Source: Oscillospiraceae bacterium
Lineage (GTDB): Bacteria > Bacillota > Clostridia > Oscillospirales > Oscillospiraceae
Assembly (NCBI GenBank): GCA_031261745.1
Contig: JAISJC010000062.1
Location: forward strand, 1 to 42,809
DNA: 42,809 bases
Direction: 5' to 3'
The position numbers and the translations under genes are program-made. Under the pieces are notes generated by a model, which ran no database searches, was not told where the DNA came from, and worked only from the letters and a program-made list of their open reading frames with translations. Positions 4,077 to 31,925 of this stretch are shown here, piece after piece. Position 1 is the stretch's first letter. Every line of letters starts with the position of its first letter.

Positions 4077-4970
4077 TTGAAATTTATCTCCGATAAAATC
4101 GACAAATTTTGCCTGACGCACAGGCGGTTCGGGATTCCGAGCCTGATGCGTTATATCGTTACGATTTCCGCAGTGGTTCTGGTTGTCAGCTGGCTGGATA
4201 AGACCGGCGGCGGGTTCCGCGAACTGCTGACGTTCTATCCGGACAGAATCGCGCGCGGCGAGCTTTGGCGGATTATCACGTGGGTTTTCATTCCGAGCGG
4301 CGGCGGAACGGGATTTACGGATCTGCTTTGGGGCGCGGTTTCGCTGTACTTTTATTACTTCATCGGCAAGACGCTTGAACACGAGTGGGGCGCGGGAAAA
4401 TTCACGATTTTCTATGCCTCCGGCGTGGTTCTGAATATCGTTTACGGCCTCATCGTCTGGTTTGTGTTTTACAGCCAAATCGGTCCGGCGGCAAAGTTCC
4501 TGTTTGTAGGTTTCGGTCCCGCGTACATCAATCTGTCGATGTTCTTCGCGTTTGCGGTGCTGTATCCGGATATGAAGATTATGCTGTTTTTCATCATTCC
4601 CGTGAAGATGAAGTGGCTCGCGCTGGTGGACGCGGCATTGTTCCTGTACACCGTTATCGCCGCGCTCGCGGCGGGGCAGTTCTTATTGGCGTTCCTCCCC
4701 GTCGTCGCAATCGCGAATTTCCTGTTGTTTTGCGGCATTCCGAATTTCCGCTTATTCAGGGCGCGCGCGAAGTCAAACGTAATCCACTTCAAGTCCGCCG
4801 CAAAAAAGATTCAGAAGCGCGCCGCCGCCGAGGGTTACCGCCATAAGTGCGAGGTTTGCGGCAGAACGGATGTTACGAATCCGGAGCTGCAATTCCGCTA
4901 CTGCTCACGGTGCGAGGGGTTCCACTGCTTCTGCGAAGAGCACATCGAAAACCATCAGCACAGAAATTAA
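4077..4970 (+). CDS. Rhomboid-like membrane protein, apparently lacking catalytic residues, with C-terminal Cys/His zinc-ribbon-like tail
   Basis: Rhomboid-type hydrophobic pattern 'GELWRIITWVFIP...FYYFIGKTLEHEWG'; C-terminal 'CEVCGRT...YCSRCEGFHCFCEEHIENH'. Confidence 0.7.
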   Translation: MKFISDKIDKFCLTHRRFGIPSLMRYIVTISAVVLVVSWLDKTGGGFRELLTFYPDRIARGELWRIITWVFIPSGGGTGFTDLLWGAVSLYFYYFIGKTLEHEWGAGKFTIFYASGVVLNIVYGLIVWFVFYSQIGPAAKFLFVGFGPAYINLSMFFAFAVLYPDMKIMLFFIIPVKMKWLALVDAALFLYTVIAALAAGQFLLAFLPVVAIANFLLFCGIPNFRLFRARAKSNVIHFKSAAKKIQKRAAAEGYRHKCEVCGRTDVTNPELQFRYCSRCEGFHCFCEEHIENHQHRN

Positions 4971-4989
4971 AATTTTTACAAAATCCCTA

Positions 4990-5018
4990 TTGCAATTACG
5001 GTAAACCTATGGTATACT
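4990..5018 (+). promoter_or_regulatory. Sigma-A-type promoter of the Rrf2-ridA-cysK unit
   Basis: TTGCAA (4990-4995), 17-nt spacer, TATACT (5013-5018). Confidence 0.65.
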
Positions 5019-5066
5019 GTGTTTCAGTAGGGATTAAAGCATACTAAGTTCAAGGAGGCGAGAAAT

Positions 5067-5504
5067 ATCAAGATAAGTACAAAAGGCAGGTATTCCCTGC
5101 GGATGCTGCTGGATTTGGCGGAGCATAAGGACGACGGTTTCGTCGCGCTGCGCGATATTGCGGAGCGGCAGGGCATATCGAAAAAGTATTTGGAGCAGAT
5201 TGTCACGTTGTTTAACAACACGGATTTCCTGCGCACAAACCGCGGTTATCAGGGCGGTTACCAGCTGGCGAAAGAGCCGCGGCATTATTCCGTCGGCGAG
5301 ATTCTGCGCGTGACGGAGGGCGGACTGTCCCCTGTCGCGTGTCTTGACGGCGATCCGAGCGAGTGCGAGCGCAGCGCGTTCTGCAAGACACTTCCCATTT
5401 GGAAAGGTCTCGGCGAGGTGATGAGCAATTACCTCGACAACATCTCTCTTCAAACGATTATCGACGAGTACGGGAACGTCGGTGCGGACGAATACTACAT
5501 TTAA
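5067..5504 (+). CDS. Rrf2-family transcriptional regulator (IscR/CymR-like); probable ATC start codon
   Basis: Translation from ATC gives (M)KISTKGRYSLRMLLDLAEHKDDGFVALRDIAERQGISKKYLEQIV, the canonical Rrf2 N-terminus; AAGGAGG RBS 8 nt upstream; no ATG/GTG/TTG between the in-frame stop at 5028 and ATG 5103. Confidence 0.85.
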   Translation: MKISTKGRYSLRMLLDLAEHKDDGFVALRDIAERQGISKKYLEQIVTLFNNTDFLRTNRGYQGGYQLAKEPRHYSVGEILRVTEGGLSPVACLDGDPSECERSAFCKTLPIWKGLGEVMSNYLDNISLQTIIDEYGNVGADEYYI

Positions 5505-5519
5505 CGGAGGAGGAATTAT

Positions 5520-5891
5520 ATGGCGGTCATAGCAACGGATAAGGCTCCTGCCGCAATCGGCCCGTATTCGCAGGCGATTACGGCAAACGGTTTTGTGTAC
5601 CTGTCGGGACAGCTCGGACTTGTGCCGGAGACGGGAAAGCTCGCGGAGGGCGGGACGCTTGAACAGGCGAAGCGGATTTTCAGGAACATCGCGGCGGTAC
5701 TGGACGCGGCGGGTTCAAAACCGGAGAATGTCGTCAAGACGACGTGCTTCCTCACGGATTTGGGCGACTTTGCGGCGTTCAACGCGCTTTACGCGGAGTT
5801 TTTCACGGGGAAACCGGCGCGGAGCTGCGTCGAAGTTTCAAAGCTCCCTCTCGGCGGCAGCGTCGAGGTTGAAGTTATAGCGACAATATAA
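5520..5891 (+). CDS. RidA family (YjgF/UK114) enamine/imine deaminase
   Basis: 'TDKAPAAIGPYSQAITANGFVYLSGQLGL...VVKTTCFLTDL'. Confidence 0.92.
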   Translation: MAVIATDKAPAAIGPYSQAITANGFVYLSGQLGLVPETGKLAEGGTLEQAKRIFRNIAAVLDAAGSKPENVVKTTCFLTDLGDFAAFNALYAEFFTGKPARSCVEVSKLPLGGSVEVEVIATI

Positions 5892-5922: not shown

Positions 5923-6852
5923 ATGAAAACCTACAAGAAACTCACGGAACTCATCGGCGGAACCCCCCTGCTTGAACTCACGAATTACTCGGCAAAAGCG
6001 GGACTGAAAGCGACCGTTCTCGGCAAACTGGAATACTTCAATCCGGCCGGATCGGTTAAAGACCGTATCGCAAAGGCGATGATTGACGACGCGGAAGCCA
6101 AAGGGCTGCTTAAAACCGGCTCCGTCATCATCGAGCCGACGTCCGGCAACACCGGTATCGGTCTCGCCGCCGTCGCGGCTTCGCGCGGGTATCGCATTAT
6201 CCTCACGATGCCGGAAACGATGTCCGTTGAGCGTCGCAACCTGTTGAAGGCCTACGGTGCGGAGCTTGTTCTGACCGACGGGTCCAAGGGTATGAAGGGC
6301 GCGATCGCGCGCGCGACGGAGCTTGCCGAAGAGATCCCCGGTGGCTTCATCCCGTCGCAGTTCACGAACCCCGCGAATCCCGCGGTTCACAAGGCGACGA
6401 CCGGTCCCGAAATCTGGGACGACACGGACGGCAAGGTTGACATTCTCGTCGGCGGCGTCGGCACGGGCGGCACGATTACGGGCGCGGGCGAATACCTGAA
6501 ATCCAAGAACCCGAACATCAAGGTCATCGCGGTCGAGCCGACCTCCTCCCCCGTTTTGTCCACCGGCACGGCGGGCGCGCACAAGATTCAGGGTATCGGC
6601 GCGGGCTTCGTGCCTGACGTTCTGAACACGAGCATTTACGACGAAATTATCACCGTGTCCAATGAGGACGCGTTCGCGACGGGTCGCGAGCTTGCCCACA
6701 GCGAGGGATTACTCGTCGGAATTTCCTCCGGCGCGGCGGCCTGGGCGGCCGGCGAACTCGCCAAACGTCCTGAGAACGCGGGTAAGATTATCGTCGCGAT
6801 TCTCCCCGACACGGGTGAGCGTTATCTGTCCACCCCGATGTTCGCGGACTAA
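5923..6852 (+). CDS. cysK: Cysteine synthase A (O-acetylserine sulfhydrylase)
   Basis: '[11 protein letters not shown]', '[15 protein letters not shown]', '[12 protein letters not shown]', '[13 protein letters not shown]'. Confidence 0.95.
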
Positions 6853-30936: not shown

Positions 30937-31908
30937 TTAATACCAGAAGCGGCTCTTTTCGTCCGCGACGTTCTTAAACAGGTCGGTGGAGAGATAACGC
31001 TCGCCCGTGTCGGGAAGAATTGCGACGACGGTTTTCCCTTTGTTTTCGGGGCGGCGGGCGATGCGAGCCGCGGCGAACGCTGCGGCACCGGACGAGATTC
31101 CGACGAGCAGCCCCTCCTCGCGCGCGAGGACGCGCGCCGTGTCAACGGCTTCCTCGTCCAGAACCTTGTAAATATCGCTGATCAGCGACAGATCCAAGAC
31201 CTGCGGCACGAAGCCTGCGCCGATGCCCTGAATTTTATGCGGTGACGGATTGCCGCCCGACAAAACGGGAGAAGCGGACGGCTCGACCGCGATAATCTCC
31301 ACGGACGGTTTCTTTTCCTTTAAGAACGCACCCGCACCGGTGATGGTTCCGCCCGTTCCGACGCCGCCGACAAGAATATCGACTTTGCCGCCCGTGGCGT
31401 CCCAGATCTCCGGACCCGTTGTCGCCTTGTGAATACGCGGGTTCGCGGGGTTATTGAACTGTTGCAGGATTACGCCGTGCGCGACCTGCGTTTGAAGTTC
31501 CTCCGCCTTGCGAATCGCGCCTTTCATCCCCGCTGCGCCTGGCGTGAGGACAAGTTCCGCACCGAGCGCGGCGACGAGACCGCGACGCTCCTGCGTCATT
31601 GTGTCGGGCATTACGATTACGATTTTGTACCCGCGCGCCGCCGCGACGAACGCGAGTCCGACGCCGGTGTTGCCGCTCGACGGCTCGATGATTACGCTCT
31701 CAGGCGTGAGAATCCCCTGCTCCTCCGCGTCGGTGATCATCGCGTAGGCGATGCGGTCCTTGACCGAGCCGAGCGGATTGAAGTATTCGAGTTTCAGAAG
31801 CAGCTCCGAGTGGTCTGCGAGTCCGGCGAGTGCGGAGAATTTCTTCGGGCGCAGAATCGGCGTGTTGCCGATAAGCTCCGTGAGGTTATTCACGATTTGA
31901 TTGCTCAT
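30937..31908 (-). CDS. cysK: Cysteine synthase (second copy, in the nitrogenase-like operon)
   Basis: '[16 protein letters not shown]', '[15 protein letters not shown]', '[13 protein letters not shown]', '[13 protein letters not shown]'. Confidence 0.94.
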
Positions 31909-31925
31909 TTTAATTCAGCTCCTTC

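Follow-up and report, generated by a model that had tools for sequence, protein, structure and literature searches.

A predicted AUC start codon for an Rrf2-family regulator gene in an Oscillospiraceae bacterium

The window, a 42,809-nucleotide stretch from an Oscillospiraceae assembly, carries an Rrf2-family regulator gene (5067-5504, + strand; 145 amino acids) whose full-length protein can begin, as assembled, only at an ATC codon. We think it reasonably probable that the base is real and that AUC 5067 starts the gene with a lowered, IF3-sensitive output, as a lineage-specific trait. The sequence at 5067-5069 reads ATC and is followed by the codons AAG ATA AGT ACA AAA GGC AGG TAT TCC CTG CGG ATG, the last of which (5103-5105) is residue 13 of the frame. 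The in-frame stop TAG at 5028-5030 closes the frame upstream and no in-frame ATG, GTG or TTG lies between it and ATG 5103, as the initial annotation had described, so that an upstream alternative start is ruled out. Orthologues begin with (M)KISTKGRY at the codon that is ATC here, which bears out the claim that the conserved Rrf2 N-terminus needs a start at 5067.

The protein read from 5067 matches Pfam PF02082 (E=2.9e-34, 118.5 bits against a cut-off of 30), NCBIfam rrf2_super (E=6.1e-32) and TIGR00738 (110.3 against a cut-off of 73.3), and its membership of the Rrf2 family is established by scores above the curated cut-offs. More specific identities were considered and rejected: the IscR equivalog model gave 105.5 bits against its cut-off of 207.55 and the CymR model 102.9 against 195. 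As these scores are about half of the cut-offs, neither name was assigned. In an AlphaFold2 model (pLDDT 86.7), the N-terminal winged helix-turn-helix is intact only if the protein is begun at 5067, with helix 1 formed by residues 5-19. Ser4, Thr5, Arg8 and Leu11, which lie within or beside this helix, are invariant among 15 orthologues, and positions 1, 6, 7, 9 and 12 are nearly so; a start at Met13 would therefore break the DNA-binding domain.

Translation from ATG 5103 would give a shortened protein lacking residues 1-12 that probably does not bind DNA normally. This codon is the first canonical in-frame start, and the protein begun there keeps an Rrf2 match of 104 bits. However, such a start would remove half of helix 1 together with the invariant residues, confirming the loss of 12 DNA-binding-domain residues that had been pointed out from the sequence; the Shine-Dalgarno pairing before it is only -8.6 kcal/mol, and codons 2-12 are conserved as protein. 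We regard a start at 5103 as very improbable.

That conservation is visible at the codon level. Between the window and genome G008, 6 codons differ within codons 2-12, and 8 differ between the window and genome G003, every one of these differences being synonymous. Whole-gene dN/dS was 0.088 and 0.076 (about 0.09), and amino-acid changes show no excess on the window branch (7, versus 6 on the G008 branch). By these comparisons, the full-length protein has been kept under selection. The dN/dS values and the intact residues rule out pseudogene decay, unless the mutation is too recent to have left a mark. No second rrf2 copy was found in the window's genome.

A Shine-Dalgarno sequence, AAGGAGG, occupies 5052-5058, with a spacer of 8 nt to the ATC, exactly where the initial annotation had placed it. 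The pairing energy computed for it against the 16S tail is -13.2 kcal/mol, versus -7.3 and -7.9 kcal/mol in the ATG-bearing congeners. When all 1302 ATC triplets on both strands of the window were considered, 3 had anti-Shine-Dalgarno pairing of -13.2 kcal/mol or stronger at start-codon spacing, and the match at ATC 5067 thus exceeds chance. A strong Shine-Dalgarno sequence fits compensation for a weak codon, as a single case. In genome G023, an equally strong one is paired with a GTG start.

The weak codon is not shared by relatives. The two closest orthologues (L003 and L004; same genus, 85% and 79% identity) have ATG at the start codon, the closest ATG-bearing congeners being G008 and G003, and the orthologues in G037 and G023 begin at TTG and GTG, respectively. 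In a scan of 394 genomes of the order with the pattern (I)K-I-S/T-T-K-G-R-Y, the first codon was ATH once, in the window's genome, versus ATG, GTG or TTG 105 times, which rules out a weak start conserved across the order. We find no support for the weak start as a regulatory feature that has evolved and been conserved, given ATG within the genus and no other ATH in the 394 genomes of the order. The initial annotation had named ATG at this codon in relatives as a finding that would refute it, and the two closest orthologues do show ATG; this removes conservation of the weak start but does not prove the base wrong. We propose that ATC arose after the window species split from its sequenced congeners.

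A GTDB-wide scan for the ATH pattern, covering about 85,000 genomes from which the window's own genome was possibly left out, gave 7 matches. Six of them proved ordinary, with an in-frame ATG or TTG 1-3 codons upstream. Only the rrf2 homologue of Ruminobacter amylophilus DSM 1361 (L039/L048; contig C40, 4973-5416) needs a weak start, ATT, and its two relatives at 89% identity carry ATG. R. amylophilus DSM 1361 is a cultured isolate in which the sporadic weak start is independent of the one in the window. Taken with the ATG relatives and the order scan, this case indicates that weak rrf2 starts are sporadic rather than conserved.

Such a pattern is also what a real but recent, strain-level hypomorphic mutation of no regulatory benefit would produce, with AUC still used as the start. 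The weak start is not conserved, the ATT of R. amylophilus is equally sporadic among ATG relatives, and there is a precedent in an E. coli stock, in which rpoS ATG>ATA lowered the protein up to 5-fold (PMC12864459). Against this, the weak codon adjoins a strong Shine-Dalgarno sequence and selection on the gene does not look relaxed, although a recent change would not yet show up. We hold such a mutation to be a real possibility, short of an even chance, and it overlaps with the explanation that we favour: AUC would be the codon used whether ATC is adaptive or a strain mutation that does mild damage.

An error of assembly or consensus, or a strain chimera, would mean that the organism really has ATG and that the gene is ordinary. 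The ATG of the closest congeners and the uniqueness of ATH among the 394 genomes of the order are both in keeping with such an error, as is the fact that ATC is known from a single fragmented assembly (155 contigs, 91% complete, 4.8% contamination); the window lies within one of these contigs. An error would, however, make the unusually strong Shine-Dalgarno sequence a coincidence. Moreover, the conserved genes of the window and of contig C60 have otherwise kept their starts and frames: with the exception of infC, these neighbours have NTG starts and open frames, which suggests that the assembly is locally sound. General assembly damage was considered and rejected, the flagged cases being tblastn over-extension, a likely shadow frame, or infC. 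We consider an error unlikely, yet read support is needed before anything is built on the ATC start.

The exception, infC, serves as an internal control. In E. coli, infC, the gene of IF3, uses an AUU start. In the window's genome, infC (L042; contig C60, 1950-2447, - strand) has ATC after GGAGGTG, with no ATG, GTG or TTG at that spacing from the motif. Among 36 infC loci examined in the order (L040-L047 and L097-L124 among those noted), 23 were parsed by motif, and all 23 begin at ATC (16), ATT (6) or ATA (1) behind strong Shine-Dalgarno sequences; the other 13 fell outside the motif parse, including L046, which likewise reads ATC. From the ATC of infC in the same genome and the uniform pattern in the order, it is very likely that ribosomes of this lineage initiate at AUC. 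The precedent invoked earlier for non-AUG initiation thus appears to be natural within the lineage itself. As a matter of annotation, gene finders limited to ATG, GTG and TTG will mis-start infC where it lies behind GGAGGT at ATC, ATT or ATA, in every parsed genome of the order, and in the window they would cut 12 residues off the DNA-binding domain of Rrf2.

The explanation that we favour, AUC initiation at 5067, would work as follows. Translation would begin with formyl-methionine, the initiator tRNA pairing with the first two bases of the codon, A and U, and being mismatched at the third. The strong Shine-Dalgarno sequence would hold the mRNA in place while IF3 opposes the mismatched complex. 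The repressor, whose gene precedes a Rid-family gene and cysK, would in consequence be made in a smaller, IF3-sensitive amount. Use of AUC, reduced output and IF3 sensitivity are what we infer from the codon and its context. Counting against this explanation, ATG to ATC is a transversion; a start codon under drift would be expected to become ATA, through the commoner transition.

Published work gives a range for the expected output. IF3 discriminates against AUU, AUC and AUA as bacterial starts, unlike AUG, GUG and UUG (PMC4611024). Reporter activity in two clostridia, C. butyricum and C. sporogenes, was 5-20% of that from AUG when AUC, AUU, AUA or CUG stood in one leader; with a second leader, alternative codons reached 40-100% of AUG in both species, where E. 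coli gave at most 3% (PMC9680021); these results may be relevant through an assumed kinship with the window organism. In S. aureus, infC, cvfC1 and ccpN have extended Shine-Dalgarno sequences at non-canonical starts, with about 10-30% of AUG from the AUA/AUU starts of ccpN and cvfC1 (PMC13009471). Our literature search found no paper linking Rrf2 with an AUU start.

The surroundings of the gene point to a possible target. A predicted, good sigma-70-type promoter lies at 4990-5018 (+ strand; TTGCAA-N17-TATACT, with TG before the -10; 9/12 matches in a scan, by consensus only). It is straddled by an imperfect inverted repeat at 4982-5035 (14-nt arms 4982-4995 and 5022-5035, 86%), a putative operator by sequence. 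Downstream on the same strand are the Rid-family gene (5520-5891; TIGR00004, 159 bits), with its own Shine-Dalgarno sequence and ATG, and cysK for cysteine synthase A (5923-6852; TIGR01139, 457 bits). The gene order is the same in G008, including the poorly conserved upstream gene. It is a reasonable guess that Rrf2 controls cysteine or sulfur metabolism, with autoregulation. The upstream gene (4077-4970) encodes 297 amino acids, 50% identical in G008, and matches nothing in Pfam or NCBIfam; its product has hydrophobic stretches suggestive of a membrane protein and a Cys-rich C-terminal end. Elsewhere in the window are a second cysteine-synthase-like gene (30937-31914, - strand), which shares about 60-64% identity with the orthologues of the cysK at 5923-6852, and a ribosomal protein L10 leader (2754-2867; Rfam RF00557, 48.8 bits) upstream of the L10 gene.

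A further reading is that the species fixed AUC and strengthened the Shine-Dalgarno sequence, so that Rrf2 would share the IF3-dependent control of infC and its level would track the condition of the translation apparatus. We find this doubtful; if true, a putative cysteine/sulfur operon would have its repressor tied to the translation state. If the start is real, a transcriptional repressor would join the short list of bacterial AUC-started genes, and the congener and window species would provide a natural ATG/ATC pair for the trade-off between a weak start and a strong Shine-Dalgarno sequence. If the codon is an assembly error, the value of the case is one of annotation caution only.

The phenomenon is of a known kind, with infC and ccpN as examples and lacI for the tuning of a repressor, and differs in being non-conserved here. 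infC begins, after a strong Shine-Dalgarno sequence, at an AUH codon that IF3 discriminates against, and its codon in this genome is the same ATC as in the window's rrf2. However, the weak start of infC is conserved, and autoregulatory in E. coli, whereas the window's rrf2 does not share its weak start even with congeners; and Rrf2, unlike IF3, has no role in start selection. The R. amylophilus rrf2 resembles the window's gene in family, position and ATG-bearing relatives, and it has no alternative start until codon 14, but its codon is ATT, its Shine-Dalgarno sequence is weak (-5.1 kcal/mol) and its lineage is distant, as of an independent event. With regard to the protein, CymR and IscR share the Rrf2 family and fold with it; IscR has three conserved cysteines in its C-terminal part, as does the window protein, and the target of CymR is cysteine metabolism, in line with the nearby cysK. 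The E. coli lacI GTG illustrates how a weaker start on a repressor tunes the regulated pathway (PMC11445065), yet GTG is a canonical start that escapes IF3 discrimination, unlike ATC. In S. aureus and B. subtilis, ccpN likewise encodes a metabolic transcriptional repressor with a non-canonical start, AUA, and an extended Shine-Dalgarno sequence (PMC13009471); its AUA is conserved between genera and mapped by ribosome profiling, whereas the ATC described here is known from the sequence of one genome.
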